64,000 nucleotides of DNA from Phycisphaerales bacterium (GTDB lineage Bacteria; Planctomycetota; Phycisphaerae; Phycisphaerales; UBA1924), in contig JAHDXL010000001.1 in the NCBI GenBank assembly GCA_023382935.1, forward strand, positions 531,003 to 595,002. The letters run 5' to 3'. The notes beneath the pieces are model-generated. The model saw only the letters and a list, made by a program, of their open reading frames with translations. It had not been told where the DNA came from and did not search any database. A program made the translations under genes and the position numbers. Each line of letters starts with the position of its first letter. Position 1 is the stretch's first letter. Positions 5,706 to 36,154 of this stretch are shown here, one piece after another.

Positions 5706-6551
5706 ATGCCCGAGACTCGAACACCCGGCGCCAAACTGCTCGGCACGTTGCTCTGGCCCATGGAGCGACTGGGCGCCGGCGCGCTGGCCACGCTGGAACA
5801 CATCGGCTCGATGGTGTGGCTGTTCATCGAGGCGGCCGCGTGGGTGCTGCGCGCCGTGTTCGGACGCCGCGTGCGCCTCGGACGCTTTGCCATCGTGTCG
5901 CAGATCGTGCGGGTGGGTGTGCGTAGCGTGTTCATCGTCACGCTGGTGTCGGGGGCGGTCGGGCTGATTCTTTCGATGCAGTTAGCGCCCCCGCTGGACC
6001 AGTTCGGGCAGCGGGCGCTGATCGCCAACATCATCAGCGTGGCCGTGCTGCGTGAACTGGGCCCGCTGATCGGCGCGATCGTGCTGACCGGGTTTGCCGG
6101 GGCCGCCATCGCCGCCGAGATCGGCACCATGGTGGTCAGTGAAGAGATCGAGGCCCTCGAGGCGCACGCGCTCAACCCGGTGCGCTTCCTTGTCGTGCCT
6201 CGTCTGACGGCCACGATCGTGAGCATGACCTGCCTGGGCGTACTGTCGAGTTTCGTCGCCATCGTCGCCTCGGTGGGCATCTCGGTCATCATGCTCGACA
6301 TCCCCCTGGAGACCTACTTCAAGAACATGGAGACCCAGACCAAGATGGTCGACTTCCTCACGGGCTTGTCCAAGGGCACCATCTTCGGGCTGCTGATCGG
6401 AATCATCGCCTGCGGCAACGGACTGAAGGTCACCGGGGGGGCGGCCGGCGTGGGCAACGCCACCACGCAGACGGTGGTTCAGTGCGTGGTGGCCATCGTC
6501 ATCGCCGACCTGGTGTTCACCGCGATCTTCTTTGCACTCAACTTGGTGTAG
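5706..6551 (+). CDS. MlaE-family ABC transporter permease
   Basis: A 281-residue inner-membrane permease of the MlaE/YrbE family, which moves phospholipid or other hydrophobic cargo across the envelope. The N-terminal amphipathic region is followed by about five to six membrane segments (around residues 70-95, 105-125, 140-165, 185-210, 220-245 and 255-280). The family's VPRLTATIVSM stretch lies near residue 162. Length is typical. The gene is last in the lipoprotein-RsbW-STAS operon. No MlaF-type ATPase or MlaD substrate-binding protein is in the window, so partners must be elsewhere. Confidence 0.9.
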   Translation: MPETRTPGAKLLGTLLWPMERLGAGALATLEHIGSMVWLFIEAAAWVLRAVFGRRVRLGRFAIVSQIVRVGVRSVFIVTLVSGAVGLILSMQLAPPLDQFGQRALIANIISVAVLRELGPLIGAIVLTGFAGAAIAAEIGTMVVSEEIEALEAHALNPVRFLVVPRLTATIVSMTCLGVLSSFVAIVASVGISVIMLDIPLETYFKNMETQTKMVDFLTGLSKGTIFGLLIGIIACGNGLKVTGGAAGVGNATTQTVVQCVVAIVIADLVFTAIFFALNLV

Positions 6552-21135: not shown

Positions 21136-22116
21136 TCACCTTTTTGTCCCGATCACGTAGAACCCCTGGCTCACCTTCAACAACTCGTACACCGCCAGCG
21201 GGTCACTCGGGCCCTGGCTCGCGCTGGTGTTGATCGACACCTCAAGACCCAGCGACTCAAACCGGCCCGCGAACCAGAACGGATCCGTCACGTTCCCGGC
21301 CGCCATGCCGGTGATCGGGTTGACCGGCGCCCTCTCCCAGCCTCCGACGAACGGGCTCGCGGGCGCCACCCCCGCCGAGACATAGGCCCGCACCGCCTGC
21401 TCCAGTTCCGGCCCCCCCATGTAGCAGGTGTTCCGCGCCAAACGCTCGGCCGCTGCTGATGCTGGCCCCACACGCAGCATCGACGCAATGTGCTCCCGCC
21501 GCACAACGTGCAATACGCCGCCCGGACGCTGTTCGCTCCCCTCGCCGATTTCGCGCTGCCGGTACACTCGCTCCAGGCGCTCCAGCGTGGCTGGACAGTG
21601 CGGGTTGTTCGAGTCGCAGAACACCAGCCGTCCCCCAGGCCGCAGGATCCGGGCGATCTCCGCGGTGGCCACCTCAAACCCGTCCGGACGCATGTTGCAA
21701 AACACCTGGTTGACGTACACCCAATCGACCGACCGGCTGGGCAGCGGCACAATGCCGCCCGCGTTCCAGACAAAGTGCACGCTCTCGAGGCCGAACTGCT
21801 TCGTCCACCGTTCCGCGAACATCGCCGTGCTCGGGTTAATCTCCACCCCGATCACGCGCCGCGGGCCCAGCATGCTCAGGATCCACGAACCCAGGCCCGT
21901 CCAGCATCCGAAGTCCACGCCCGTCGTCCCGTCCACCGATCCAATCACCGGTATCACGCTCGACTCATACAACGCCACCCAGCCGCGAATCTTCTCGTCG
22001 TCGTCGAATCCCGCAAGGTGCGCCGCCACGTCCCGCGCGTGCGCCCCGGACTCGGCGTGGTCGAGCATCCAGTCTCGCACCTCGCCCACGCGCGCGATCA
22101 GTTCCTGCTCGCTCAT
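21136..22116 (-). CDS. SAM-dependent methyltransferase (class I)
   Basis: A 326-residue methyltransferase. Motif I appears in a variant form, GVDFGCWTGLGSW (about residues 67-79), followed by the acidic residue in IGVEINPS and the motif IV/post region WVYVNQVFCNMRP and ILRPGGRLVFCDSNN. It acts on an unknown acceptor, most likely a sugar or glycan given the neighbours. AAAGG lies upstream of the ATG at 22116; an upstream extension of the frame reads antisense of the next gene. It is the last gene of the minus arm of the glycan locus, 10 bases after the deacetylase-hydrolase fusion. Confidence 0.88.
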   Translation of the reverse strand: MSEQELIARVGEVRDWMLDHAESGAHARDVAAHLAGFDDDEKIRGWVALYESSVIPVIGSVDGTTGVDFGCWTGLGSWILSMLGPRRVIGVEINPSTAMFAERWTKQFGLESVHFVWNAGGIVPLPSRSVDWVYVNQVFCNMRPDGFEVATAEIARILRPGGRLVFCDSNNPHCPATLERLERVYRQREIGEGSEQRPGGVLHVVRREHIASMLRVGPASAAAERLARNTCYMGGPELEQAVRAYVSAGVAPASPFVGGWERAPVNPITGMAAGNVTDPFWFAGRFESLGLEVSINTSASQGPSDPLAVYELLKVSQGFYVIGTKR

Positions 22117-22126
22117 GCGCGGCCTT

Positions 22127-24121
22127 TCAGAGCGCATCGGACAGCAGAGGCCCCAGCGCGTCATACAGCGCCCGCCCCGCCAGCCGATGCCCGGTGTGAC
22201 TCCATGTGCCCGACGCACGCCAGTGCGTCGGCGCGCCGCGGTGCGACAGAAAACGCTCATACGGGTCGACCAGTTCCACTCCCGCCGCCCGCACCCACGC
22301 TCCCACCACCTCCAGCGTGTGCTGGTGCGCCGCCGCGTCGTCCGTGCAGCGCCCCCGCCAGTATCCCGCCGACTCGCCGCACTCGCACAGCAGACACAGC
22401 ACCCGTGCCCCACTTGCTCGCACTGCCCCGGCGTAATGCGTCAGGCAGGCACCGATCTTTTCCATGTCCCTGCCGCCGCGACCGTGCAGACTCTCCGGTT
22501 CGGCCAGCGAAGGACGCAACTCCGGCGTCTGCGGGCGACCGCGCCGGATCAACGCCCCCCTTGACCGCCCCACCACGCGCACCGCACCATCCTCTCCCAC
22601 CCACAGATACTCCCCGCCCGGGTGCGACACGCTCCAGCCGCTGTGCGCTGTCCACAGGTCCGGGCGCGAGTTGAGCACTTCGTCGGCCCCCACGCCGATC
22701 ACCACCACGTCATGCCGCTCACGCTGGCTCACCCGCTCAAACCACCCGTAATGCCGACACAGCCCCATCCCCGGAAACGCCAGTTTCCGCACCCGCACCT
22801 TCACGCCCAGCGCCTCACTCAGCCGGGCGCCCGCCTGCATATGACAGTGCTCCGGGATTCCCACCTCGAACCCATCAAGATTGCGCCCGCCCAGCACCAA
22901 CACGCGCTTCTCATCCGCCCCGACGCTGGCGGGCGGCGGCACATCGAGCATCCCGCGCTCGTCGGCGTAGTTCAGACTCTGATACTCCACCCGCCCGTCC
23001 ACCTCGCCGAAATCAGCCTGTACCGTGTGCGGCTCGTAGGTGTCCCAACCAAGGTCGGAGTTTGCAGCCACGCTGCGCTGGCGCGTCCGCACAGCCGGAG
23101 CGCTCGTGCGCGCGTGGCGCGCCCCGTAATACAGCGGATGCACGTTGAGAATCAGCCAGTAGCCCGGGTCAAACGAGCGGATCTGCTCGATCATCCGCTC
23201 CTGGTCGATGAACCTGTCCTCGCCCGGATCCTTGTGCTTGCGCCACTCCTTCAGGTGGTGATCCCAGCGCCACCGGTTCAGGTAGCGTGTCGCTCCGTAC
23301 TCGATCCGCACGTCCTTGCGCCGGAAAAAGTCGTTGCCCTCGTAGGCGAGTCCCAGTTCGGCCTCGTCGAGCACACCCAGCGGCGCCCACTTGCCCTCGT
23401 GCACGATTTCGTCCAGCAGCGCGTCGCCCGGCTCGCCGCGCGAGCCCAGCGCCAGCCCGCGCCGGTTCTTTCCCCTGAAGATCGCGAAGTTCTCGATCCC
23501 GTAGATCGGCGCGGAGTTGTGCGCCACGGTCCCGGTGATCCGCAGCCCCTGCGCGCGCAGCCAGGCGATTTCCTCGCGCACCGCCTGCGCACCGTCCAGT
23601 TTCATGTTCTGATACAGGTGCAGTGGATCGGTATGCAGCGCCATTTCATGGCCCAGATCCTGGATCTGCCTGTACAGGTGCGCCATGCACCCGTTGCGAT
23701 AATGCACCCCGTCGACCCACGACCCGTAGTACGGGGCCGTGTGCAGGATGAAGTAACTCGTGCGCGCGCCGTACGCCCTTTCGATCTCCGCCTCGGCCAG
23801 GGCTGCCCGCATGTCCGCGTCCACGTCGTGACGGATCGAGCACACCACCTCTCCGGGCGGGCACCCGTAGTCGTTCAACTCGGTGTGCGGCACGAACACC
23901 AGGTTCGGAATCGACGCCAGTTCGCGGATCAACTTCTCATATTGCGCCAGCGTGTCCACCGTCACGCGCCCCTGGTCCGGGTGAGGCCCGGCGCGCAGGT
24001 CGGGCCCGTAGCACTCGAAGCAACTCAGGTTCACCTGCGCCAGCACGTCGCGCACACTGCGCCCGCTGTCGATTACTCGGTAAGGCGCGATTCCGTGCTC
24101 CCGCTCGATGGCCACGCTCAT
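22127..24121 (-). CDS. NodB-like deacetylase fused to an SGNH-type hydrolase
   Basis: A 664-residue two-domain protein. The N-terminal half (about residues 1-370) is a polysaccharide-deacetylase fold of the WbmS-like type, with the metal-binding SIRHDVDAD (about 95-103), EMALHTDPLH and GTVAHNSAPIYG. The C-terminal half (about 410-664) looks like an SGNH/GDSL hydrolase: a Rossmann-like VLVLGGRNLDG start, GVGADEVLNS and a final SGTWSHTGHRLAG with the block V histidine. The block I serine is not obvious. It probably removes acyl groups from a sugar or glycan. The ATG at 24121 overlaps the sulfotransferase stop (ATGA). Its N-terminal domain is paralogous to the gene at 26863. Confidence 0.75.
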   Translation of the reverse strand: MSVAIEREHGIAPYRVIDSGRSVRDVLAQVNLSCFECYGPDLRAGPHPDQGRVTVDTLAQYEKLIRELASIPNLVFVPHTELNDYGCPPGEVVCSIRHDVDADMRAALAEAEIERAYGARTSYFILHTAPYYGSWVDGVHYRNGCMAHLYRQIQDLGHEMALHTDPLHLYQNMKLDGAQAVREEIAWLRAQGLRITGTVAHNSAPIYGIENFAIFRGKNRRGLALGSRGEPGDALLDEIVHEGKWAPLGVLDEAELGLAYEGNDFFRRKDVRIEYGATRYLNRWRWDHHLKEWRKHKDPGEDRFIDQERMIEQIRSFDPGYWLILNVHPLYYGARHARTSAPAVRTRQRSVAANSDLGWDTYEPHTVQADFGEVDGRVEYQSLNYADERGMLDVPPPASVGADEKRVLVLGGRNLDGFEVGIPEHCHMQAGARLSEALGVKVRVRKLAFPGMGLCRHYGWFERVSQRERHDVVVIGVGADEVLNSRPDLWTAHSGWSVSHPGGEYLWVGEDGAVRVVGRSRGALIRRGRPQTPELRPSLAEPESLHGRGGRDMEKIGACLTHYAGAVRASGARVLCLLCECGESAGYWRGRCTDDAAAHQHTLEVVGAWVRAAGVELVDPYERFLSHRGAPTHWRASGTWSHTGHRLAGRALYDALGPLLSDAL

Positions 24122-25284
24122 CCGAACACCCCTGACGCCGCCATGAGCGACAGCACCCCCAACACCACCGCCAACGCGATCACCGCGATGACCGCGCCGG
24201 GCGCCCCCGTGCGTGCACCCGTCACGCCGCTGGCGCCCCGCCCCGACATCGCAGACGCCAACAGAGGCGAAGGCGGCTCGAGCGCACGGACCGTCGACCC
24301 CGACGCCACCGTCGCCGGCTCGATCGGTGCGAGCACCGGGGGTGCCGCGCTCGGCGTCGGCTCGACCGGTCCAGCCGATGAAGATTCCACCGCTGGCTGG
24401 CCCGACTCCAGCGCCCACTCCGCGCTGAAGGTCGCCCACTCCTCAGCCGTGAACCGGTCGCGCTCGTATCCAAACTCAGCGTTCCGCCGGCCACAGATCA
24501 CATCGAAGAGAAACAACTCGCGTGTTGAGCGGCGTTCGCGCCAGCGGTCTGCCTCAAATTGGTGGCCTGGATTCTCGATCAGTTTGCGGTACTGCTCCTC
24601 ATAGAACGCCCGGTCGCGCGCGTGGGACGACACCGAGATGCCCTGGAACTGCTTGATCATGAAGATCGGGCCTTGGTTTCCGGCGGCCGGATGGTGGTCG
24701 AACTCCCAGAACCGCAGCGCCCGCTCGTCATAGCGCAGTCCGACGAACCGTCCGACCCGCTCCAGCATCCCGCACTGGTCGGCCAAGACGTCCTCATAGC
24801 GCAGACACAGGCGATCGGGGTCATCTGGATCCCACTGAAACTGGTGGAATGAGGGAGCCAGCCAGTCGCGGCACACCTCCAAAAAGGCCAGGTTGGGAAA
24901 CTTGGAAGCGTAACTGTCGGCCACCGCGCGACCGTCGCGGATCAGATAGATCGGCTTGACCACCACATCAGGGTGTTCGAGCGATTTGGCTGCCCCTTGA
25001 GGCAGTGGGTTGTTGGTGACAATGACGCGTTTTCCGGAGGAGCGGGCGAGGTGGAGGAAGAAGTTTGCGCCTTCCGGCCAAGTCTCGTAAAACCTGGGCC
25101 AGAATGGGCAGGACGTCCCGTGAACCCGGCAGGCTTCGACCGCTTTGTCCGGCGTGAGCCCGAGGGGACGATCGCAGGGTCCGAGCGCAAAGGCGTCGGG
25201 GTGCGACCCGAGCACAAAGTTGAGCCAGGTGGTGCCCGTGTAACTGAGTGAGTAGATCACGACCACCGTGACGGGTTGGTTCAT
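24118..25284 (-). CDS. Sulfotransferase with C-terminal membrane anchor
   Basis: A 388-residue PAPS-type sulfotransferase. The 5'-phosphosulfate loop is YSLSYTGTTWLN (residues 12-23) and the 3'-phosphate region is KPIYLIRDGRAVADSY (about 110-125). The catalytic region ends near residue 300. It is followed by a Pro/Ser/Ala linker and one hydrophobic segment (VIAVIALAVVLGVLSLM) at the very C-terminus, the layout of a tail-anchored protein. AGAGGA before the ATG at 25284 marks the start. It is the first gene of the minus arm, divergent from a second sulfotransferase at 25391. Confidence 0.85.
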   Translation of the reverse strand: MNQPVTVVVIYSLSYTGTTWLNFVLGSHPDAFALGPCDRPLGLTPDKAVEACRVHGTSCPFWPRFYETWPEGANFFLHLARSSGKRVIVTNNPLPQGAAKSLEHPDVVVKPIYLIRDGRAVADSYASKFPNLAFLEVCRDWLAPSFHQFQWDPDDPDRLCLRYEDVLADQCGMLERVGRFVGLRYDERALRFWEFDHHPAAGNQGPIFMIKQFQGISVSSHARDRAFYEEQYRKLIENPGHQFEADRWRERRSTRELFLFDVICGRRNAEFGYERDRFTAEEWATFSAEWALESGQPAVESSSAGPVEPTPSAAPPVLAPIEPATVASGSTVRALEPPSPLLASAMSGRGASGVTGARTGAPGAVIAVIALAVVLGVLSLMAASGVFG

Positions 25285-25377
25285 GGAATCCTCTTTGGGG
25301 TGCGGCCGGGGCAGTATAGACGCCGACCCTTGAAACCCCCGTGGAAAGCGCCTCCAGGGGGTGGGACTCGTGTACCC

Positions 25378-25383
25378 TATCCT
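25378..25383 (+). promoter_or_regulatory. -10-like box TATCCT, leaderless start of the plus arm
   Basis: TATCCT ends 7 bases before the ATG at 25391, and no Shine-Dalgarno is present. The minus arm has a separate TATACT about 25 bases before its start plus an AGAGGA site, so the two divergent arms appear to start translation in different ways. Confidence 0.45.
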
Positions 25384-25390
25384 CCTGCGT

Positions 25391-26866
25391 ATGAGGCCGT
25401 TCTTCGTCCTTTCCAGCGCGCGGGCGGGTTCAACCTCGCTGGCGACGATCCTTGACGGTGCCCGAAATGGGTGCTGCCTGGTGGAGCCTTCGCCCAATCT
25501 GAACCGCGAGACACGGCTGGCGATGGAGGGGCGTCTGTCCGACCCCGGGGCGGTGGTGCGCGACGTGATCGTGCCGCGCGTTCGGGCATCGGGCAGGGAC
25601 ATTCACGGCGAGAAAAACGTGACCTACGGGCCGTTCATCCCGCACCTGCACGAGCAACTGGGCGCCCGCTTCGTGCTGCTGACGCGTGACGGGCGTGACG
25701 TGGTGCGATCACTGATGGACTGGCACGAGCGGCTGTTCGGGACGGTGTATAGGGAGGCGGTGGACGCTGGCGTGCTGTCGGGAGAGGCGCGCAAGGCGGC
25801 CGGCGCGTTGCCGGTGCATCTGGACACCTCGGACTTTGCCCGCCCGCGTCCGCTCCCCGGCGAGCGGATGTACGAGCGATGGTCGAGGGCGACGCGATTC
25901 GAGATGTGCTGCTACTACTGGGCCCGCATCTACGAGTTGTACCTGGATGAACTCGAGCGTCTGCCGATGGATGCCTGGACGCGGATTGACTACACGAGCG
26001 CGACGGCCGAGGACGTGCTGCGCGTGGCCGATTTCCTGGGCCTGAGCGGGCTGGAACGTTGGCGCGTGCAGGGGCTGCTCGACCGGCGCGTCAACTCGTT
26101 GAAGGACCGGTGCGACGAGGAGGCTCGCTACCCGGCGTGGCCGGACTGGGACGGGCGGCAGCGGGCCGCCTTTGACGAGATCGCCGGCGCGACGATGCGG
26201 CGGCTGGCATACTCCAGCGACGAGGCGACGCGCTGGAAGCCGGCGGGATACGGGCGGTGCTGGCACGAGAAGGGCGCCGACCTGGGGTGGTACGAGTGGA
26301 TGTACGACGGGCGTCGGCGGATGCACGAGGAGGCCATTGCGTGGGTGCGCGGTCGCGGCGACGTGCGCAGCGTGATGGATCTGGGCTGCGGACTGGGCGT
26401 GGGGTACGCGGACGGTTTTTCGGATCTGGAGTATGTCGGCGTGGACCTCTCGCCCAGGTCGATCGAGTGGTGCCGGTCGAATCGACGGAACTCGCTGCAT
26501 CGGTATGAAGCGCGCGACTTTGTGGAAAGGCCCTTCGAGAAGCAGGCCGACGTGGTGATGTCGAGCGGGACGATTGACAATGCCTATGACCCGGAGGCCT
26601 ACCTGGATGCGATGATTCGCGCGTCGAAGCGATACATCTATCTGACGTGCTATCGGGGCTGGTTTGATGAACTGCAGGATCACCGGTTCGCGTTCAACCG
26701 GGAGCACGGGTGTTTCTACGCGGACCTATCGCCGCGGCGGCTGCGTGAGCATCTGGAGCGGCGCGGATGCAGCGACATCGTGATCGAGCCGAGGGCGACG
26801 GGTCGGACGGACATCCCCGCTGAGACACGGGTGATCGCGCGGGTGCCGCAGGAGGCGGGTGCATGA
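25391..26866 (+). CDS. Sulfotransferase-methyltransferase fusion
   Basis: A 491-residue two-domain protein. Residues about 1-270 are a sulfotransferase with FFVLSSARAGSTSLA (5-19) and the 3'-phosphate region FVLLTRDGRDVVRSL (about 97-111). Residues about 310-491 are a class I SAM methyltransferase with VMDLGCGLGVGYADG (about 327) and an acidic residue in YVGVDLSP. One polypeptide would thus sulfate and methylate the same or neighbouring sugar positions; this is inferred. No stop or frameshift separates the halves. The next gene begins at the overlapping ATGA. Confidence 0.85.
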   Translation: MRPFFVLSSARAGSTSLATILDGARNGCCLVEPSPNLNRETRLAMEGRLSDPGAVVRDVIVPRVRASGRDIHGEKNVTYGPFIPHLHEQLGARFVLLTRDGRDVVRSLMDWHERLFGTVYREAVDAGVLSGEARKAAGALPVHLDTSDFARPRPLPGERMYERWSRATRFEMCCYYWARIYELYLDELERLPMDAWTRIDYTSATAEDVLRVADFLGLSGLERWRVQGLLDRRVNSLKDRCDEEARYPAWPDWDGRQRAAFDEIAGATMRRLAYSSDEATRWKPAGYGRCWHEKGADLGWYEWMYDGRRRMHEEAIAWVRGRGDVRSVMDLGCGLGVGYADGFSDLEYVGVDLSPRSIEWCRSNRRNSLHRYEARDFVERPFEKQADVVMSSGTIDNAYDPEAYLDAMIRASKRYIYLTCYRGWFDELQDHRFAFNREHGCFYADLSPRRLREHLERRGCSDIVIEPRATGRTDIPAETRVIARVPQEAGA

Positions 26867-28023
26867 GGAGTGAGTCGGAAGTCAAGCCGGTCAGGCGGCG
26901 CGATCGCATGGCACAACTGGAGCGCGATCTGGCGATTGAACGTGAGCGTGCCAAGATGCTGCGTGAAGACCTGCGACAGGCGCTGCGCGAGTTGAATGCG
27001 ATGCACGCGGCCATGGACATCACCGGCACGCGCCCACCGGGGCTTGCCGACCTGTCGGGCAAGCCGGTGCGTCCGCTGGCGATCAACGAGATGGACCTGG
27101 CCGATTATTTCCGTCAGGTGGACCACAACTACCGCGGCTACGCCAATCCGTTTCATCATTACGAGCAGTTGCTGACGATGCTCGAGTCGCACGCGCGGGT
27201 GACGCTGGCGCCGTGCTACGAGTTGGCGGCCGCGCCGCGGGGAACCTCGGTGCAGGTGGCGCTGCGGCACGATATTGACGCGGACCCGGTGACGGCGGTC
27301 CGAATGGCGCGGCTGCTGGCGCAGCGCGGCATCGGCTCCACCTTCTACCTGCTGCACACGGCGATCTACTACGGGCAGTTTTTCGGGTCGCTGTTCTTCC
27401 GTCACCGCGAACTGCCGCGCTGGGTCGAGCAGATGCTGGTAGCCGGTTGTGAACTGGGCGTGCACAACGACGCGCTGGGGGCGCACCGGCGGCTGGGGGT
27501 GGACGGCCCGGCGGCGCTGGTGCAGGAGATCGAGTGGCTGCGCACACAGGGAGCGACCATCCGGGGCACGGCGGGGCACAACAGCGCGCCGGTGTACCAG
27601 GCCGAGAACTCGGAAGTTTTCCGCGGGCGCGTGCTGTGGAACACGGATGACGTGGTGCGCGGGCGTCTGCCGCTGGGTGTGCTCGATGAACAGGCGCTGG
27701 GGCTGTCCTACGAAGGCACGTTCGCGGCGCGCCGTCGCACGACGAGCGGGGCGAGTGCCTTTGCCGGGGACCGGGCGTCGGCCGACATCCGCAGCCCGTC
27801 GTGGATGAAAACGTACCTGTGTGAGAACCCGTGCTGCGAGTGGCAGGTGGACATGCAGGTGTGGGTGGTCGGGCAGAACCGTTGGGTCGCCGGCGGACGG
27901 CTGGGCGGGGAAGTCTATTTTCGAGATGGCCTAACGCTGGCGGACCTGCGCTCGGTGATGGATGACCTGCCGGGCGGGGGGCGGTGCCTGTTCGTGCTGC
28001 ACCCGGAGTATTTCAGAGCGTGA
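26863..28023 (+). CDS. NodB-like polysaccharide deacetylase (WbmS-like)
   Basis: A 386-residue protein. A coiled-coil-like N-terminus (residues about 10-55, ERDLAIERERAKMLREDLRQ) precedes a deacetylase fold with ALRHDIDAD (about 131-139), TFYLLHTAIYYG, GVHNDALG and GTAGHNSAPVY. The aspartate and histidines fit metal binding by the family. It is paralogous to the N-terminal half of the 22127 gene: RHDxDAD, HTAxYYG, GHNSAP or AHNSAP, and GVLDExxLGLxYEG all recur. It lacks a signal peptide, so it should act in the cytoplasm on a nucleotide- or lipid-linked intermediate. Starts at ATGA overlap. Confidence 0.82.
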   Translation: MRSESEVKPVRRRDRMAQLERDLAIERERAKMLREDLRQALRELNAMHAAMDITGTRPPGLADLSGKPVRPLAINEMDLADYFRQVDHNYRGYANPFHHYEQLLTMLESHARVTLAPCYELAAAPRGTSVQVALRHDIDADPVTAVRMARLLAQRGIGSTFYLLHTAIYYGQFFGSLFFRHRELPRWVEQMLVAGCELGVHNDALGAHRRLGVDGPAALVQEIEWLRTQGATIRGTAGHNSAPVYQAENSEVFRGRVLWNTDDVVRGRLPLGVLDEQALGLSYEGTFAARRRTTSGASAFAGDRASADIRSPSWMKTYLCENPCCEWQVDMQVWVVGQNRWVAGGRLGGEVYFRDGLTLADLRSVMDDLPGGGRCLFVLHPEYFRA

Positions 28024-28031
28024 CGGCGACC

Positions 28032-30047
28032 ATGACTCCAACCGAGCCGCTCATCGAACCAAAGCCCGCGCCGCGCCCGGAGCGCTGGACGCCCGAGCCG
28101 TCGGCCTTCGACTGGGAGGGGTGGCTCAAGCACTTCGAGGCTGCGCACGGGCGGCGGCCTCGCATCCTGCACATCGGCAACGTGGCCAACAACGGATACA
28201 ACAACGCCAAGGTGCTGGTGGAGGCGGGTTTTGACTGCGACGCCCTGTGCTACGACTACTACCACATCATGGGCTGCCCGGAGTGGGAAGACGCCGATTT
28301 CGCGGGCATGGTGCGGGATCACTTCATGCCGAACTGGCGTGACGTGGACCTGCGCGGATTTCAGCGGCAGCACTGGTTTGCGCAGGGCCCGCGCTACTGG
28401 GCCATCGGGTATCTGCTGGCACGGAGGGCCGGGCGGGCGCGCCAGGCGGCGATTCTGTGGCGCATCCTGTCGTTCGGACAGTGGATGGCGTCCAAGCGTC
28501 CGTCGCGGTGGTACAAGTTCGCCAAACGCTCCTGGATATTCGCCGTTCAGCAGTACGAGCGCCTCCGCGTCGTGGGCCCGCGCGTGTCGCAGACGATTTC
28601 ACGGGGGATGAGATGGACGCGGAACCGCGTCGCGGCCGTGGTGAGCGCCGCCGTACCCGACTATCGTCACCTGCGCAGGACCGCGATCTGGCGGGCGCGC
28701 CGGCAGCGTCGTCTATGGCGCATGGCATGGAAGAAGTGGCGTGCCTGGGGCGCGCACTGGCGCTGGCCTCTGGCCACGATTTGGAAAGTGCTGCTGCAAC
28801 TGCTGCTCACGCCCCTGTTGCTTGTCGGGCTGGTGGTGCTGGTCGCCTGTATCCCGCTGGTGCTTCTCGACTCGCTCGGACGCCGCATCCACAAGCGTCA
28901 GAGGCACCAGGCGCGGCCCCGGGCGGCCAGGCCGGTTTCCACTGGACTGCCGCTGTCGTTCCGGTTGTCACGGCGGTTGATGGGCTGGCGGCATGGCATC
29001 TTTGCACGACTGACCGGAGTCGACCCGCGCGCGCTCGACACACCTGCGTTTGAGGCTGAGTTTCAGGCGCGCTGCGCCGAACTGATCGCCGACTTTGATC
29101 GGCGCTTTCCCAATCGCCCGGACCGGCTCGTGATGCTCGACATGCTGCCCTATCGCAGCGTCCTCCCGCTGTGGAAAGAACTGTTCAGTCGATACGACCT
29201 TGTCGAGGCCTACGCGACCGATCCGATCCTGACGATGCTCACCGGCTATCAGCCCTGTGTCGCGTATGAGCATGGCACCATCCGCGAGATTCCCTTCGCC
29301 GACAATCCCACGGCCCGGCTGACAGCGCTCGCGTATGCGCGCTGCGATGCAGTGGTGATCACCAACCCGGACTGCCGCGAGGCCGCCGACAGGCTGGGCG
29401 TGAAGAGGTTCGTGCCCATTCCGCACTTGATCGACCGCAAGTACTACGACCCGGGCATCGCCGACGACGGGCCTCTGCCTCCGGAAGTGTGTCCGCCGTA
29501 CATCTTCAGCCCGGCGCGGCACGACTGGGACGTGAAGGGGACGGACATTCTGATCCGGGCCTTCGCGGCCATTGCGCACGAGTATCCAGACCTGCAACTG
29601 GTCACTCCCTCCTGGGGCATGGACGTGCAGCGTTCGCGCGACCTGATCGCACAACTGGGGCTGAGCGACCGGGTCGCGATGATCGAGCCGCTGAACATTC
29701 ACAACCTCATCCGCGTGACGCGCGGGGCGCGAGCGCTGGTCGACCAGTTCCGTTTCGGCGTGTTCGGGGGCATCGGCCCGACGGCACTGGCGGTGGGAAC
29801 GCCGCTGATCACTCACCTTGATCACGACAAGAGCGACTGGTGCATGGAGCCGCCGCCCTATTTTCAGGCCCACGACGTGGCGACCTGCGTGCAGGCGCTG
29901 CGTGCGGCGCTGGAGTGTGATCCCGGCTCGCTGCGGGCATCGCTGCGCGCGTGGATGCGGCGCAACTACTGGCACGGGCAGGTGGTGGAGCGTCACGCCA
30001 CGCTGTTCGCACGATTGATCGACCAATATCCGAGGAGCACGCCATGA
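28032..30047 (+). CDS. Glycosyltransferase with basic membrane insertion
   Basis: A 671-residue protein. The N-terminal Rossmann half starts with RILHIGNVANNGYNNAKVLV (residues 44-63) and CYDYYHIMGCPEWED. A second glycosyltransferase half is seen at about 480-670, with SPARHDWDVKGTDILI, VAMIEPLNI and the donor-binding GVFGGIGPTALAVGTPLITH. Between them lie about 180 residues rich in Arg and Trp plus one clear membrane segment at about 250-280 (LLLTPLLLVGLVVLVACIPL). ATG at 28032 was chosen; a GTG at 28020 overlaps the previous stop and is possible. It probably acts at the inner membrane on a lipid-linked glycan. Confidence 0.78.
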   Translation: MTPTEPLIEPKPAPRPERWTPEPSAFDWEGWLKHFEAAHGRRPRILHIGNVANNGYNNAKVLVEAGFDCDALCYDYYHIMGCPEWEDADFAGMVRDHFMPNWRDVDLRGFQRQHWFAQGPRYWAIGYLLARRAGRARQAAILWRILSFGQWMASKRPSRWYKFAKRSWIFAVQQYERLRVVGPRVSQTISRGMRWTRNRVAAVVSAAVPDYRHLRRTAIWRARRQRRLWRMAWKKWRAWGAHWRWPLATIWKVLLQLLLTPLLLVGLVVLVACIPLVLLDSLGRRIHKRQRHQARPRAARPVSTGLPLSFRLSRRLMGWRHGIFARLTGVDPRALDTPAFEAEFQARCAELIADFDRRFPNRPDRLVMLDMLPYRSVLPLWKELFSRYDLVEAYATDPILTMLTGYQPCVAYEHGTIREIPFADNPTARLTALAYARCDAVVITNPDCREAADRLGVKRFVPIPHLIDRKYYDPGIADDGPLPPEVCPPYIFSPARHDWDVKGTDILIRAFAAIAHEYPDLQLVTPSWGMDVQRSRDLIAQLGLSDRVAMIEPLNIHNLIRVTRGARALVDQFRFGVFGGIGPTALAVGTPLITHLDHDKSDWCMEPPPYFQAHDVATCVQALRAALECDPGSLRASLRAWMRRNYWHGQVVERHATLFARLIDQYPRSTP

Positions 30048-31168
30048 AACGCGACGCGCTTCCCCTTCTCCGCGATCCGCTGACCGGAGCCCGGCTCGAA
30101 CTCGAGGTTTTCGAGTCGCGTGATGGCGAGATCATCGAGGCGCTGCTCACCAGCCCCGCCAACTGGTACCCGGTCAGCGAGGGCGTGCCGAGGCTGCTGA
30201 CCGGCGACGTGCGCGGCGACGACTCGGCCTTTCTCACGCGCCACCGACTGCACGAACGACTCGGCGTGCAGCCTCGCCCCGCCTCCACCAGCACTCAGGT
30301 TGAGACCAACAAGACCTTCTCCGACAAGTGGCGACGGTTCAGGAACTACGGCTTCGAGGCCGAGCACCAGAAGTTTCTCGGCGGCTGGTTCGTCAAGAAG
30401 TTCGGGCTCTCATCTCCGGATGAATTGCCGCCGTTTTACAGGCAATTCAGGAGCATTCTCGAGATCGGGCCGGGCTCGGGCTTCAATACGCGCTTCATGG
30501 CCGAGCACTGCGCGGGCACGGTGATGTCGGTCGACATCTCCGAGGCCGCGGACACCACCTACGGCAACGTGGGGGCAATGCCCAACGTGCACGTGGTGCA
30601 GGCCGACTGCAACCTCGTGCCGTGCGAGGATGGGGTGTTCGATTTTGCGATCGCCGACGGAGTGCTGCATCACACGCCGAACACGCGGGAGGCCGTGGCC
30701 AACGTACTGCGCAAGGTGCGTCCGGGCGGGCAGTTTTTCTTCTATGTCTACAAGCAGATGGGTGCGGCCCGTCGCTTCTGCGATCGGCACCTGCGCGAGC
30801 ACCTGTCGCCGCTTGAGCCGGAAGACTGCTATGCCGCGTGCGAGGGCATCACGGAACTGGGGCGTGAACTCAGCCGCCTGAACGCGACGGTGCGGCTGGA
30901 GAAGGGGATCCCCCTGCTGGGCATTCCGCCGGGCGAGCACAACGTGCAGCGACTGCTCTACTACAACTTCCTCAAGTGCTTCTGGAATGACGCGTTCGAC
31001 TGGGAGACCAACAACATGGTCAACTTCGACTGGTATCACCCGCACGACGCCTGGCAGCACACCGAGGAGGAAGTCCGGGGGTGGCTGGCCGATCTGGGGG
31101 TGCGCGACTACGCCATCCATGACGCCAACCCCAACGGCATCTCGGTGCTGTTGCTCAAGCCGGAATGA
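30044..31168 (+). CDS. SAM-dependent methyltransferase
   Basis: A 374-residue methyltransferase. The first 55 residues resemble a Trm112-like strand pair without the usual cysteines (LLRDPLTGARLELEVFES and NWYPVSEGVPRLLTG). Motif I is ILEIGPGSGFNTRFM (about 142), with an acidic partner in MSVDISEAAD and the post-motif ADGVLHHTPNTREAV and RKVRPGGQFFFYV. The ATG overlaps the previous stop (ATGA). As third gene of the plus arm it most likely methylates a sugar or glycan intermediate. Confidence 0.88.
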   Translation: MKRDALPLLRDPLTGARLELEVFESRDGEIIEALLTSPANWYPVSEGVPRLLTGDVRGDDSAFLTRHRLHERLGVQPRPASTSTQVETNKTFSDKWRRFRNYGFEAEHQKFLGGWFVKKFGLSSPDELPPFYRQFRSILEIGPGSGFNTRFMAEHCAGTVMSVDISEAADTTYGNVGAMPNVHVVQADCNLVPCEDGVFDFAIADGVLHHTPNTREAVANVLRKVRPGGQFFFYVYKQMGAARRFCDRHLREHLSPLEPEDCYAACEGITELGRELSRLNATVRLEKGIPLLGIPPGEHNVQRLLYYNFLKCFWNDAFDWETNNMVNFDWYHPHDAWQHTEEEVRGWLADLGVRDYAIHDANPNGISVLLLKPE

Positions 31169-31177
31169 CTACCCGCC

Positions 31178-32344
31178 ATGCGCCGCTTCCTGCGCACCGT
31201 CGCGGTCCTTGTGCTCAGCCTGCTCGTCGCTCCGGTGGCGATGATCGCCGGGAAGGCGATCCGTCGCGGGCGACCTCTGCGCAGTCTGTGGGCCGTGCAT
31301 CCGGTGCCGACGGTGCCTCTCAAGGCGCGGGCCGAGCGCAGCCTTGGGGTGGAAGTGGAGACGCTGGCCTTCGAGACCAACCGACTTGTGGATCAGTTCG
31401 ATCATGTGCTGTCGCGGCGCGGGAATCGGCTGTGGAGCGGCGTGGCGGCCTTCATTGCCTTTGTGTGGAGCGTGCGCCGGTTTGATCGCCTGCACTTCTT
31501 CTTCGACCGCGGCCTGCTGCCCGGGCTGCGCCCGCGCCAGTTCAACCCGGTCGAATTGTGGGTGTATCGCGTGCTCGGCAAGCAGGCTTTCTTCTGGGCC
31601 TACGGGGCCGACGTGCGCACGCGGCAGTCCACGCTCGGGCTGTCCGCGCCCAACTGCTGCCTGGCCTGCCCGCAGCCGGGTCGATTCTGCGTCTGCCATG
31701 ATCAGGCGGCGGAAAGATGCCAGCGGCGCATCGCGCGCACCGCCGCCGCAACATTCTCCCTCGGCGACATGAAGCGATACACGCCGGGAAGCATCAACGA
31801 CCTGTTCTACTGGCCGATCGACCTGGCCGAGCCAGCCTTCGATCCGGCCTATCCCGATTCGGCGTCCCGCGCCCCGCTGCTGGTGGTGCATGCGCCCAAC
31901 CACCGCTTCTTCAAGGGCACCGACCATCTCCTGGACGCGATCGAGCAGTTGAAAGGGCGCGGCGTCGAGATCGAACTCGACCTGATCGAGGGACTGCCCC
32001 GCGACCAGGCCTTGCTCCGCTATCGTCGGGCCGACGTGGTGTTCGACCAGTGCCTGATCGGCTTCCACGGATATTTCGCGCTCGAGGTGATGGGCATGGG
32101 CAAGCCGGTGCTGTGCTTCCTTCGTGATCCGCAGGCGGACCTGCTCGCGCCCGACCAGTGCCCCATCATCAATGTGCGGCCCGAGACCATCGCCGGGCAA
32201 CTCGAGCGTCTGGCGTGCGATCGCGTGCTGGCTCACCAACTCGGGCGGCAGGGCCGCGCGTACGTTGGGCGCTACTACACTGTGGAGGCGTTCGCCGAAC
32301 GACTGGCCGCTACATACGCCAGGCTGGGGGTCCGCACATCATGA
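31178..32344 (+). CDS. Glycosyltransferase with C-x2-C-x6-C cluster
   Basis: A 388-residue protein. An N-terminal membrane segment (residues about 7-25) is followed by a GT-B-like body. A cysteine cluster begins after YGADVRTR: C161-x2-C164-x6-C171, with further Cys at 160, 173 and 181. The C-terminal donor half has VVHAPNHRFFKGTDHLLDAI, ELDLIEGLPRDQALLRYRRA and FHGYFALEVMGMGKPVLCF. It is clearly paralogous to the gene at 33219 in both the cluster and the donor half. It starts 9 bases after the previous stop. Likely transfers a sugar during assembly of the locus glycan. Confidence 0.8.
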   Translation: MRRFLRTVAVLVLSLLVAPVAMIAGKAIRRGRPLRSLWAVHPVPTVPLKARAERSLGVEVETLAFETNRLVDQFDHVLSRRGNRLWSGVAAFIAFVWSVRRFDRLHFFFDRGLLPGLRPRQFNPVELWVYRVLGKQAFFWAYGADVRTRQSTLGLSAPNCCLACPQPGRFCVCHDQAAERCQRRIARTAAATFSLGDMKRYTPGSINDLFYWPIDLAEPAFDPAYPDSASRAPLLVVHAPNHRFFKGTDHLLDAIEQLKGRGVEIELDLIEGLPRDQALLRYRRADVVFDQCLIGFHGYFALEVMGMGKPVLCFLRDPQADLLAPDQCPIINVRPETIAGQLERLACDRVLAHQLGRQGRAYVGRYYTVEAFAERLAATYARLGVRTS

Positions 32345-33222
32345 ACTCGGCCATCATCGGAGCAACGGGTTTCATCGGCAGGCACCTGGCGCGTGAACTG
32401 TCGCGCCTCGGGCACTGCGCCGGCTATGACCTGCACGCGGCCGATCTGGGCGAGACGCGCGTCGAAGTCTGTGACATCGCGCGGCAGGCGCCGGTGCTTC
32501 CCGCCGACACCGACGCGGTGTTTTACCTCGCGCAGTATCCGGGCTATCGCAGTTTCCCGACACGCGGAGGTGACCTCTGGGGCGTGAATGCAGGGGGCGC
32601 GTTGCGTGCCGTCGAGGCCGCCCGGGTCGTCGGGGCGCGAGCGTTCATCTACGCTTCGACCGGCACCGTCTACGCGCCCTCGTTTGCGCCCCTGTCAGAA
32701 TCGGCGCCGGTGCGGCGCGACCAGCCCTATGCCCTTTCCAAGGTGGCTGGCGAGGAAGCGTTGGCGTTGATTGACCAGCCTCGAACCTGCTGCGTGCGCC
32801 TCTTCGGCGTGTTCGGGCCGCGACAGACGACCATGCTCGTGCCCGCCATTGCCAACCGCATCCGCCAGGGCCAGCCTGTCACCATCGAGCCGCATCCGAC
32901 CGATCCGGGGGACCGCGACGGGCTGCGGATCAGCCTGACCGACGTCGGCGATGTGTGCGCCGGCATGATCGCACTGGCCCGTCGCCTGCTCGACGGAAGT
33001 GACGTGCCGCGGGTGGTCAACCTCGCGGCCCCACGGGCAGTGTCCATCCGGCAACTGGGCCAGACCATCGCACGCACGCTGGGCACGGAAGCCTGCTTCG
33101 AGACGGCCGCACAGCCGCGAGCAGGCGACTACATCGCCGACATCACGCTGCTGCGTGGCACTGTGAGCCTGTCATTCACCGCCTTTGACGCCGGCATCGC
33201 GCGCGCCCTGCTCGACCAATGA
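32341..33222 (+). CDS. NAD-dependent epimerase/dehydratase
   Basis: A 293-residue short-chain dehydrogenase-type sugar-nucleotide enzyme. The dinucleotide motif is IIGATGFIGRH (residues 5-15), the serine/threonine region is FIYASTGTVYAPS (about 100), and the YxxxK pair is QPYALSK (about 131-137). The C-terminal part has the usual SLTDVGDVCAGMIAL. The exact epimerisation or dehydration is unknown. ATG overlaps the previous stop (ATGA). It probably supplies the donor sugar for the flanking glycosyltransferases. Confidence 0.88.
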   Translation: MNSAIIGATGFIGRHLARELSRLGHCAGYDLHAADLGETRVEVCDIARQAPVLPADTDAVFYLAQYPGYRSFPTRGGDLWGVNAGGALRAVEAARVVGARAFIYASTGTVYAPSFAPLSESAPVRRDQPYALSKVAGEEALALIDQPRTCCVRLFGVFGPRQTTMLVPAIANRIRQGQPVTIEPHPTDPGDRDGLRISLTDVGDVCAGMIALARRLLDGSDVPRVVNLAAPRAVSIRQLGQTIARTLGTEACFETAAQPRAGDYIADITLLRGTVSLSFTAFDAGIARALLDQ

Positions 33223-34292
33223 CCTCCAAGGCCCGACCTCTGCGCGTGCTTCACTGCCCGACCGACGTGGGAGGGCATCCCTGCGAACTGGCGCGCGCGG
33301 AGCGCCGAATCGGGCTGGACAGCACCGTCGCGGTCACGCGCCGCGGCCCGTTCGACTATCCGGTCGACATCGACCTCGGACTGGCCGGCGCCTCGCGCCT
33401 GCGTCGGCTGATCGGGCGCGTGCAGTTGCTTGCGCACGCCTTCGGGCGCTATGACGTGATCCACTTCAACTTCGGACAGCGCCTGCTGCCCATGCTCGGG
33501 CCGGTGTGTCTCGATCTGCCGCTGCTGCGGGCGGCCGGGGCGCGCCTTTTCACAACCTTCCAGGGCTGCGATGTCCGCCTGCCCACCCACTGCCCGATCT
33601 GTCGCAATGGAAACGGCCGGTGCGCGCTCAAACTGGCACGCACGCGCCTGCGGGCGGCCCGCGCGTCGGCGCGGTGGAGCGAGCGAACGTTTGCCCTCAA
33701 CCCCGATCTGCTGGACACCGTGCCCGGCGCGGTCTTTCTGCCCTACGCACGTCTCGATCCGCGCACGGTGCAGCCGGTGTATCCCTCGCAGCACGCCGGA
33801 CCTCTGCGCGTCGCCCACGCCCCCACCAACCGCATGGTCAAGGGGACAGAGGCGGTGCTCGACGCGGCGCGGCAACTCGGCGGATTGATCGAACTGGACC
33901 TCGTCGAAGGCGTCACGAACCAGCAGGCGCTCGATCGCATCGCCCGGGCCGACGTGGTGGTCGATCAACTGCGACTGGGTTGGTATGGAGGGCTGGCAGC
34001 CGAGGCGATGGCGCTGGGCAAACCGGTGATCGCCTTCATCGACCCGCGCGCCCGCAAGCGCATTCCGCGCGCGATGGCCACGGAAATGCCAATCATCTCC
34101 GCCGAGCCACGCTCCCTGCACGCGACGCTGGAAGGCCTGGCGTCGGAGGCGCGTTCGACGCTGCCCGATCGCGGCATGGCCTCCCGCCGGTTTGTCGAGC
34201 GCTGGCACGACCCGATCGCCATTGCGCGATGGATGGCGCGGGTGTATGCCGAGCCTGCGGCCGCCGACGGTGGCTTCATGCCGGAAGCGTGA
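33219..34292 (+). CDS. Glycosyltransferase with C-x2-C-x6-C cluster, paralog
   Basis: A 357-residue cytosolic GT-B-like protein without the N-terminal membrane segment of its paralog at 31178. The shared cysteine cluster is C125-x2-C128-x6-C135 (CPICRNGNGRC) just after FQGCDVRLP. The donor half has VAHAPTNRMVKGTEAVL, ELDLVEGVTNQQALDRIARA and WYGGLAAEAMALGKPVIAF, matching the paralog block by block. ATG overlaps the previous stop (ATGA). It is the last gene of the plus arm. Confidence 0.82.
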   Translation: MTSKARPLRVLHCPTDVGGHPCELARAERRIGLDSTVAVTRRGPFDYPVDIDLGLAGASRLRRLIGRVQLLAHAFGRYDVIHFNFGQRLLPMLGPVCLDLPLLRAAGARLFTTFQGCDVRLPTHCPICRNGNGRCALKLARTRLRAARASARWSERTFALNPDLLDTVPGAVFLPYARLDPRTVQPVYPSQHAGPLRVAHAPTNRMVKGTEAVLDAARQLGGLIELDLVEGVTNQQALDRIARADVVVDQLRLGWYGGLAAEAMALGKPVIAFIDPRARKRIPRAMATEMPIISAEPRSLHATLEGLASEARSTLPDRGMASRRFVERWHDPIAIARWMARVYAEPAAADGGFMPEA

Positions 34293-34483: not shown

Positions 34484-35227
34484 TCAGCGACGACGACGGC
34501 CCGAGAGCAGGCCCGCACCGACGAGCAGCGTGGCGCCCGCGGCCGGGGTCGGGATGACCACGAACACGCTGGTGCCGCCCGCGCTGTCGTTGGCCGTCAG
34601 GCGGAAAGCCCACTGAATGCCCATTTCGCTGAGAGGCCCGGCAAAGGCGGCGAAGTTGCCGGCGCCAGCGGGATACTCATCGCTGGTGGTGCGGGAATCG
34701 AACGGCGTTCCGAACCCGAAGGGGCCCGAGATCAGGTTGGCAAACACCGCACCGGCGTCGTAGTACGCCTCGTACATGGTGCCGCCGGCCTGCAAGCCGG
34801 TCAGGGTGGCGCCATTGCCGTTCGTGTCGGTCAGCGTGACACCGGCCGAGGCGCGACCCAACGGGTTGGCGATGTTCGGCGTCGAGACGATGCCACTGCC
34901 GAGGCTGAAGTTGGTGTCCGCATTGCCCGCCTGGACCACGAAACTGTGGCTGACGTTGCCGGACGTGGTGAACATGAGCGAACCGAACAGGACCGACGCG
35001 ATGGTGGCGCCATTGCCCGAGTCGACGATCTGCACTGGGGAACTAAGCACCCAGATGAACGTTCCGTCGGGAAGGGTGACGCCGTCATCGGTCGAAACCT
35101 GGAAAGAGCCGGCGCCGAACGAAGACGACGCTTGAATGGTCAAGGCGACGTCCGCGCTCGCGGTTGCTGCAGCGAAACCAGCAACACCGGCGACGAGCCA
35201 ACCGCTCCGCATGCTGAGCCCGTGCAT
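34484..35227 (-). CDS. PEP-CTERM-like secreted protein (paralog A)
   Basis: A 247-residue exported protein. Signal peptide at about residues 1-25 (ends ATASADV), a beta-rich body, and a C-terminal sorting tail PTPAAGATLLVGAGLLSG ending RRRR. The body repeats blocks of its neighbour at 35438: LGRASAGVTLTDTNGNGATL versus WGRASAGVSVTDTLGNGATL, and the SVFxVxPxPA approach to the tail. Function is unknown; such proteins are sorted to the envelope by an exosortase. GGAGG sits 6 bases before the ATG at 35227, which decides the start. No exosortase is in the window. Confidence 0.82.
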   Translation of the reverse strand: MHGLSMRSGWLVAGVAGFAAATASADVALTIQASSSFGAGSFQVSTDDGVTLPDGTFIWVLSSPVQIVDSGNGATIASVLFGSLMFTTSGNVSHSFVVQAGNADTNFSLGSGIVSTPNIANPLGRASAGVTLTDTNGNGATLTGLQAGGTMYEAYYDAGAVFANLISGPFGFGTPFDSRTTSDEYPAGAGNFAAFAGPLSEMGIQWAFRLTANDSAGGTSVFVVIPTPAAGATLLVGAGLLSGRRRR

Positions 35228-35293
35228 TACTTGCCTCCACCCGGACCTGTGCCGGGCACACTCTCTCTCATTCCCCGAAGAGCCCCGACTCGA

Positions 35294-35320
35294 GGCGGAA
35301 CGTGGAAACGGCGTTCCGCC
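35294..35320. terminator. 9-bp hairpin between the PEP-CTERM paralogs
   Basis: GGCGGAACG (35294-35302) and CGTTCCGCC (35312-35320) pair perfectly around a 9-base loop. It lies in the 210-base gap between the paralogs and could end the upstream transcript or form the leader of the downstream one. There is no T-tract. Confidence 0.45.
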
Positions 35321-35437
35321 CTCTCTCCGACCCGGTGCCGCTCTTCTCTCTTGTCTCTCAAACTCCCTGACTCGGACAACGCGAACTCGCCGCGAGCGCC
35401 GGAGGAACCAGCGCTCGAGGCGGGTGATCGGACAGAC

Positions 35438-36154
35438 TCACCGACGACGACGCATGGCCAGGCCGCCCAACCCGAGCAGCGCCAGGCTGGCCGGAGCGGG
35501 AACAACCGTGAACACGCTGGTGCCGGACGCGATGTCGAAGGCGGAGACAGCAAAGGTCCACTCAGCGCTGATGTCGGCCACCGAGCCGGCGACCGGGCCG
35601 AACAGCCCGCCGCCCGGGAACTCAGCCGAAGCCGTGGCCGTCGAGAACGCACCGGCGACCACCGATCCGTTCAACAGGCTGGCAAAGGTCGAGCCGAAGG
35701 CGTTGTAGTAGGCGGTGTAGGCCGCACCACCGACGGCGGCGAGCGTCGCGCCGTTGCCCAGCGTATCGGTCACGCTCACGCCGGCCGAAGCGCGACCCCA
35801 CGCGGTGGGATACGCGGCCCCGAACTGGGCGCTGGTCACCTGGAAGACGGTATTGGAAGCGCCGGCGGCAACGTTGAAGTTCAGCGTCACAGTCTGCCCG
35901 GCCACCCGGCTCCCGCTTCCCATGCTGGCGGAAATCGACTCGATCAGCCCAACTCCATCGAGGTCCATCGATTGGTTGAGTTCGTAGACCCACATGCTCC
36001 CTTCCCAACGACCGTCCTCGAAGTTGACGACGAACGACGCGCTCTCACCGTTGCTGCTTGCGGTGATGCGGAACGCTTCGGTCAGATCGGCCTGTGCGCA
36101 TGTCGCAGCACCCGCAACCAGAGCCACAGCGGCTTTCACAATCGTCTTGGTCAT
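35438..36154 (-). CDS. PEP-CTERM secreted protein (paralog B)
   Basis: A 238-residue exported protein. Signal peptide at residues 1-22 (TKTIVKAAVALVAGAATCAQA), beta-rich body with Gly/Ala/Ser repeats, and a textbook PEP-CTERM-like tail VPAPASLALLGLGGLAM ending RRRR. It is a tandem paralog of the 34484 gene. The ATG at 36154 follows AGAGAAG, and a TTG further upstream is less likely. It is divergent from the subtilase gene at 36490. Confidence 0.83.
   Translation of the reverse strand: MTKTIVKAAVALVAGAATCAQADLTEAFRITASSNGESASFVVNFEDGRWEGSMWVYELNQSMDLDGVGLIESISASMGSGSRVAGQTVTLNFNVAAGASNTVFQVTSAQFGAAYPTAWGRASAGVSVTDTLGNGATLAAVGGAAYTAYYNAFGSTFASLLNGSVVAGAFSTATASAEFPGGGLFGPVAGSVADISAEWTFAVSAFDIASGTSVFTVVPAPASLALLGLGGLAMRRRR

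Follow-up and report, generated by a model that had tools for sequence, protein, structure and literature searches.

A conserved ten-gene locus of an uncultured planctomycete and its candidate NDST-like pairing of deacetylases with sulfotransferases

What does the ten-gene block at positions 21136-34292 of this planctomycete DNA make, and what do its two deacetylases have to do with its two sulfotransferases? The stretch analyzed, 64,000 nucleotides from a Phycisphaerales bacterium (hereafter the window; G000:C1:531003-595002), belongs to an uncultured organism whose genome, G000, is 3.72 Mb in size, 35 contigs in number and 95.4% complete. An earlier note, made from the sequence alone, had placed three genes on the minus strand and seven on the plus strand, and had read them as a locus for a sulfated, methylated and deacetylated glycan. 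We confirmed all ten open reading frames (Table 1), and that reading is well supported. What went unnoticed there is the coupling between the deacetylases (DAC1 and DAC2) and the sulfotransferases (ST1, and ST2, which is fused to the methyltransferase MT2). The DAC-ST module is the strongest result of our analysis, and the locus is more than chance.

The coupling is seen when DAC genes are followed across genomes. We examined 69 DAC genes from genome collections: 11 share a protein with an ST, 25 adjoin an ST gene and 33 do neither, so that 36 of the 69 are linked. The 69 comprise 51 non-redundant genes (10 fused, 19 adjacent and 22 neither), the two of the window, four recovered by six-frame search (L056 and L066, adjacent; L075 and L089, neither) and 12 phylum-search matches, of which G797 is a DAC-ST2 fusion and 11 are weak and have no ST. 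Six-frame search also moved two genes, that of G001 (via L053) and L055_462, from neither to adjacent; it recovered what our custom gene caller had missed, the DACs of L056, L066, L137, L075 and L089 as well as fragments of ST genes in L053 and L055. The DAC and ST profiles were built from the first loci found. Weaker DAC-like matches beside STs at L086 (12919-14742) and L089 (1511-4159) fell below the cut-off and were not counted. As background, nine of 528 genes lying more than five genes away from a DAC match the ST profiles; six of the nine come from regions chosen for their ST, and two (G000sec and L066) from loci with a caller-missed DAC.

The linkage is tightest around the DACs of the window. 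In a quick, midpoint-rooted tree of 49 DAC rows with SH-aLRT support only, both fall in one 25-row group (SH-aLRT 99), in which only L055_2501 has no ST. Together with L056 and L066, which were placed by identity and ST partner and not by the tree, the group counts 27 members, 26 of them ST-linked. Within the 25 rows, all 13 DAC2-type rows partner ST2 and 11 of the 12 other rows partner ST1. Fusions are known in both domain orders and with three ST types: DAC-SGNH-ST1 (906 aa, G099), ST1-DAC (1005 aa, L060), ST2-MT-DAC (848 aa, L062), DAC-ST2 (G118, equal to L083 and 707 aa long, G200, G462, G413, L085, L086 and G797) and ST3-DAC (G413, cut by the contig start). These natural fusion proteins are ∼600-1005 aa in length. 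The ST-linked loci are labelled as metagenome-assembled genomes of Phycisphaerae, Gamma- and Betaproteobacteria, Anaerolineales, Denitrovibrio and Coleofasciculus, and some labels are doubtful. In the portions of the open-licence literature consulted, no description of a bacterial deacetylase-sulfotransferase fusion was found.

Two further features of the DAC-ST loci were observed. A second ST1-type and DAC1-SGNH-type pair lies elsewhere in G000, G002 and G026 (G000:C3 ∼266462-269499, equal to L041:2463-5500; L042; L057); it has a 4-bp overlap in G000 and G002, and no glycosyltransferase was recognised among its scanned neighbours. In G002 these include genes resembling plsY and thymidylate kinase; also nearby is a conserved protein of 834-850 aa whose DASGS motif reads as vWA-like. 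Adjoining DAC-ST fusions are mutually similar proteins of 559-694 aa (L030:9359-11230, L060:10717-12486, L048:7405-9084 and L044:5826-7910; 24-25% to the first); the three checked contain several hydrophobic helices and look ABC-exporter-like by reading, and the L030 protein has no Pfam match.

As the earlier note had proposed, DAC1 is a paralog of DAC2, with 36% identity over 210 aa (E 3e-31). The candidate active-site residues R, D, D, H, H and H(-P) are invariant across 25 DAC rows. In DAC2, R135, H136, D137, D139, H201, H239 and H380 are invariant in 12 rows; the motif columns of DAC1 lie around D99, D101, H163, H201 and H328. We compared the DACs by hhalign with CE4 profiles made from PF01522 proteins of the same and related genomes (four proteins in profile A8 and eight in A9, taken from those of 12 loci whose frame could be recognised; L124, L130, L131 and L132 were excluded), which gave probabilities of 91% (E 1e-6, 70 columns) and 85% (E 6e-6, 104 columns). 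By this comparison the DACs carry NodB-like motifs 1 and 2 of CE4, with CE4 TFDDG aligned to DAC RHDVD in motif 1 and GHE..H in motif 2. Of the D-H-H metal triad of CE4, with HxxxH in motif 2, the DACs keep the Asp and the first His, whereas the second His has no fixed place; H239 of DAC2 may stand in for it. PF01522 matches only 2 of 17 DAC members (best E 0.014), and in a PF01522 search the genome of the window returned two other loci, not DAC1 or DAC2. A WbmS-like subgroup is a possible place for the DACs within CE4.

DAC relatives were also noticed in other settings. Twelve IMG/VR viral contigs (L133-L144) contain short ones, 221-264 aa where called, and in eight Bacteroidota loci (L072, L073, L076-L080 and L082) a DAC relative lies between conserved 869-aa and 927-934-aa proteins.

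DAC1 is followed by a second domain, which the earlier note had called an SGNH fusion partner. The AlphaFold model of the protein has a predicted local distance difference test score (pLDDT) of 87.5 from 25 sequences, and its C-terminal domain matches TesA (Z 15.3, 178 residues, 2.8 Å), which confirms the SGNH fold by model; in Pfam, DAC1 gives a GDSL match alone, below the cut-off. The top row of the structure search is CgnD (8a2n; Z 18.6 over 246 residues), whose match extends across residues 58-657 of the model. SGNH-domain matches filled the fold-search lists for DAC1, so neither CE4 nor NDST/Agd3 rows came up. With the register of the block read from the sequence, a GDS-type Ser is absent in all 10 rows covering it, where GGR, GGK, DGG, DGA, GGA or GCQ stands instead. 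The fold stood up, but the domain is not clearly an enzyme: because the canonical Ser is absent, it may bind rather than cut.

Both STs have the fold of sulfotransferases that use 3′-phosphoadenosine 5′-phosphosulfate (PAPS), ST1 by two Pfam cut-offs and ST2 by its model. The Pfam match of ST2 is below the cut-off (23.6 vs 27 bits). The ST2-MT2 model (pLDDT 84.2, built from 11 sequences) places ST2 on the PAPS sulfotransferase TPST1 (Z 16.4, 220 residues, 3.6 Å) and MT2 on an S-adenosylmethionine (SAM) methyltransferase (Z 17.9, 191 residues, 3.3 Å). An APS kinase is encoded elsewhere in the genome. The C-terminal hydrophobic helix of ST1 was kept, by hydropathy, in four of four relatives' genes checked; like it, the internal helix of GT1 and the N-terminal helix of GT2 are kept in the relatives checked, and all three fit a location of these proteins at the inner membrane.

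Enzymes that are repeatedly found fused usually catalyse consecutive steps on one substrate. Since DAC-ST fusion is recurrent and NDST, the animal N-deacetylase/N-sulfotransferase with which heparin sulfation begins, offers a known deacetylase/sulfotransferase precedent, we favour an NDST-like function, in which the DAC-ST pairs would N-deacetylate an amino sugar and then sulfate it; by this analogy we give the reading an even chance. NDST deacetylates GlcNAc and sulfates the amine (PMC10864358). Like NDST, the module combines a deacetylase domain with a PAPS sulfotransferase, and in the seven DAC-ST2 fusions both lie in one chain with the deacetylase first. By sequence, however, the DAC-ST proteins are not an NDST, and we do not file them as such because similarity was tested among PDB chains and Pfam family models and none was detected for the DACs. 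The NDST1 deacetylase, which uses D320/H389/H393 and is homologous to fungal Agd3 (PMC10864358), differs from the DACs, which conserve only one motif-2 His. Different from NDST as well, the proteins of the window carry extra SGNH-fold or MT domains.

Several observations weigh against an NDST-like function. In the window, DAC1/ST1 and DAC2/ST2-MT2 are partners on separate genes, different from the single polypeptide of NDST. By profiles, the 33 unlinked DAC genes, mostly distant, have no nearby ST; they are 14 of Bacteroidota, 11 of the 12 weak phylum-level matches, L087, L088, L089, G222b, G256, G390, G428 and one of the two L055 genes. All 12 viral-contig DACs likewise have no nearby ST by profiles. 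The CE4 likeness is confined to 70-104 columns that surround motifs 1 and 2; one CE4 protein alone gave 70% over 40 columns, and the genome's other, weak PF01522 protein failed (0.5%). No PDB chain matched the DAC profile at E≤10, and NDST families were absent from the Pfam matches of the 17 DAC members. NDST-type deacetylases are reported to cluster with CE18 and not CE4 (PMC13353177). The listed structural neighbours of the ST2 model are tyrosylprotein sulfotransferases, which are O-sulfotransferases. Finally, no Pontiella locus was found among the DAC search matches.

The O-sulfotransferase neighbours of ST2 also speak for the closest competitor, that DAC and ST act on the same glycan at different positions, leaving a free or methylated amine and an O-sulfate, with fusion and adjacency reflecting a shared substrate and not two steps on one nitrogen. 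Three methyltransferase domains, one of them fused to ST2, and the existence of DACs without ST would suit such tailoring too. Yet the ST link, the only one to a tailoring enzyme that was counted in this way, holds over both fusion orders and three ST types. We keep this alternative as a serious rival, possible but well short of an even chance.

With an NDST-like pairing as the preferred reading, we infer the following scheme, which extends to the N-position of the sulfate, the substrate, the order of steps, the cellular site and the export route. The locus would make, in the cytoplasm, a surface glycan linked to a membrane carrier, with the three glycosyltransferase-like proteins and the epimerase providing and joining the sugars. 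Two separate modules, DAC1 with ST1 and DAC2 with ST2-MT2, would tailor it: the CE4-like domain would deacetylate an N-acetylated sugar, after which its ST would transfer sulfate from PAPS to that residue, most likely to the amine set free, in the manner of the two coupled steps of animal NDST. MT1, MT2 and MT3 would put on methyl groups, and ST2-MT2 may also cap the chain. Export would run through Wzm/Wzt in many relatives; in this lineage it would perhaps use a Wzx flippase whose gene lies next to another ST gene outside the locus.

Table 1. Genes of the block and the gap between its two arms, by position in the window.
Feature	Positions	Strand	Assignment	Basis
MT1	21136..22116	-	class I SAM-dependent methyltransferase	Pfam Methyltransf_11 47 bits, over cut-off
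DAC1-SGNH	22127..24121	-	CE4-like deacetylase domain (~aa 45-340) and SGNH-fold domain (~aa 402-662)	AlphaFold model; motif columns; CE4 profile similarity
ST1	24118..25284	-	sulfotransferase; one C-terminal hydrophobic helix, aa 364-382	Sulfotransfer_3 30.1 bits and Sulfotransfer_1 23.8 bits, both over cut-off
divergent gap	25285..25369	.	intergenic, between the arms	85 bp
ST2-MT2	25370..26866	+	sulfotransferase (aa ~3-290) fused to SAM methyltransferase (aa ~290-495)	Pfam; predicted model
DAC2	26863..28023	+	CE4-like deacetylase	paralogy to DAC1; invariant residues; no Pfam match
GT1	28020..30047	+	GT4-like glycosyltransferase; internal hydrophobic helix, aa 265-283	Glycos_transf_1 E 9e-5, below cut-off; hydropathy
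MT3	30044..31168	+	SAM methyltransferase, Trm112-like N-terminus	Methyltransf_11 61 bits, over cut-off; Trm112 NF038101 33 bits (below cut-off)
GT2	31178..32344	+	glycosyltransferase; N-terminal hydrophobic helix	NCBIfam GT4-type models, below cut-off; no Pfam match
EPI	32341..33222	+	NAD-dependent epimerase/dehydratase	Pfam Epimerase 104 bits, over cut-off
GT3	33219 (ATG) or 33246 (GTG)..34292	+	glycosyltransferase	GT2 paralogy; one weak NCBIfam match (E 0.037); no Pfam match

The block is kept as a unit. All ten genes are present in the same order in four of 149 relatives searched, intact and with the same orientation in G002, G026 and G069 and over two contigs in G001. The earlier note had named beforehand scattered genes in neighbouring genomes as the finding that would speak against it; what we found is conserved order. 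MT1 orthologs in the four relatives are 54-63% identical; GT2 and GT3 are paralogs of each other (34% over 341 aa). DAC2 has a match in seven of 150 genomes, its own included, and its profile matches 14 of 397 genomes of the class (E≤1e-8) and 17 of 392 of the phylum (E≤1e-10). Beyond the four relatives, G099 carries on one strand Wzm, Wzt, DAC1-SGNH-ST1, ST2-MT2, DAC2, GT1, GT2, EPI and GT3, with no MT1 or MT3 ortholog seen, and L067 carries on one strand ST2-MT2, DAC2, GT1, GT2, EPI and GT3. Because both have the set on one strand, the divergent layout is not constant in this system.

This bears on the earlier description of the locus as mirrored. The deacetylases are indeed related, but BLAST finds no similarity between ST1 and ST2 at E≤1 and G099 has the same gene kinds on one strand; the mirror is mostly appearance. 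An inverted duplication of one arm was rejected on these same grounds and on the weak mutual matches of MT1, MT2 and MT3 (E 0.12-0.7). The claim that most junctions overlap by ATGA held: six of eight same-strand junctions overlap by 4 bp, five as ATGA and one as GTGA, the last of the plus arm (EPI/GT3) only if GT3 starts at 33219. The two without overlap are 22116/22127 (MT1/DAC1-SGNH) and 31168/31178 (MT3/GT2). No sigma-70-like promoter match was found in the divergent gap.

How the glycan would leave the cell bears on what kind of glycan it is. We scanned 49 of the 55 predicted genes of the window (40 against Pfam and nine against NCBIfam only; several match no family) and, in agreement with the earlier note, recognised no flippase, polymerase or polysaccharide exporter, which sets the window apart from Wzm/Wzt-dependent clusters. 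The window does encode an MlaE-type lipid permease (5760-6551), but this belongs to a different system. The missing exporter is partly explained by relatives. Outside the family, Wzm/Wzt lie just upstream of ST2/DAC2 in seven of nine such loci (G099, G167, G222, L061, L062, L063 and L065; five confirmed by Pfam and two by custom profiles only); in G099 the fused DAC1-ST1 gene lies in between, and in G167 a single 918-aa protein joins an ABC ATPase, Wzt_C, ST2 and MT2. Neither L067 nor the 11.9-kb contig L066 has Wzm/Wzt beside ST2/DAC2. The genome of the window itself gave no Wzt_C match in a search that was positive in two of 14 control genomes, and three examined of its four ABC-2 membrane regions gave no match to the Wzm profile. 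It does have a single PF01943 (Wzx) flippase gene, which overlaps a further ST gene by 4 bp (L100:9310-11960, G000:C4), and a PF02397 initiating transferase elsewhere.

Orthologs of the Wzx-linked ST with at least 75% identity occur in only five of 150 genomes (G000, G001, G002, G026 and G069; next best 45%), in each case beside the flippase gene, and the same five hold the ten-gene block. For a ClpC-like marker, 20 family genomes without the locus score above G026 against the window, which suggests, from a single marker gene rather than a genome tree, that closeness alone does not pick out these five.

This Wzx-ST pair, together with the count of only three glycosyltransferases and the lack of a recognised polymerase among the genes scanned, would suit a glycolipid or a protein-linked short sulfated oligosaccharide in place of a polymer. 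The Wzm/Wzt neighbours of the relatives favour polysaccharides, however, and no genome-wide Wzy search was made; we consider a short product unlikely. Unlikely too, in our judgement, though kept as a serious rival, is that ST2-MT2 is a WbdD-like chain-terminating cap for Wzm/Wzt, sulfating and methylating the non-reducing end to stop growth and mark the chain for the carbohydrate-binding domain of Wzt: the upstream Wzm-Wzt genes, the G167 fusion and the precedent of WbdD, a bifunctional kinase/methyltransferase setting O9a chain length (PMC3482155), point that way, and relatives do resemble WbdD-type ABC-dependent O-antigen clusters in having a bifunctional methyltransferase enzyme beside Wzm/Wzt, whereas ST2-MT2 has a sulfotransferase where WbdD has a kinase, the literature found on WbdD mentions no sulfotransferase, and the Wzt_C and Wzm results for the window's genome stand against it.

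The left neighbours of the block (one gene with a weak likeness to hydrolases, one without a match and DUF6263) and its right neighbours (two proteins with sub-threshold PEP-CTERM/anchor-like tails, a subtilase and an endonuclease/phosphatase-family gene) are unrelated to it. The two tailed proteins, related to each other and encoded on the minus strand at 34484-36154, directly adjoin the block; both keep this place in G002, G026 and G069, and one is visible in G001 near a contig end. The flanks of the window carry housekeeping genes (GMP synthase, a GTPase of the signal recognition particle type and riboflavin genes), and its G+C content is even (0.63-0.69). On these two grounds we rejected a plasmid origin, for which the ST2-MT2 and DAC2 domains also gave no plasmid match (tblastn, E≤1e-5), and a viral element, for which the 12 viral contigs with DAC relatives carry no ST by profiles.

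Sulfated bacterial glycans are known from other systems. A sulfated glycosaminoglycan-like exopolysaccharide of Pontiella (Kiritimatiellae), of the same superphylum, is reported to show 75-80% N-sulfation, with its enzymes still to be identified and its putative cluster described by an ST, glycosyltransferases and an aminotransferase (PMC7356697). It resembles the proposed product as a bacterial glycan with sulfate on amino sugars, and the link is only conceptual. The cyanobacterial exopolysaccharide synechan (xss) is alike in being sulfated, and its paper mentions sulfotransferases (PMC8205485); this likeness is by description, not by sequence.

Going further, we suggest tentatively, at somewhat less than an even chance, that bacterial NDST equivalents arose several times by joining a CE4-like deacetylase to different STs, that they make N-sulfated, glycosaminoglycan-like surface glycans, and that the two modules here would give one glycan two different sulfation marks. 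For heparin biosynthesis, expressing active NDST in bacteria is described as a key bottleneck, and an artificial fusion was made to circumvent it (PMC13353177). The natural bacterial DAC-ST fusions are candidates for expression and assay, which makes the question of N-sulfation testable.

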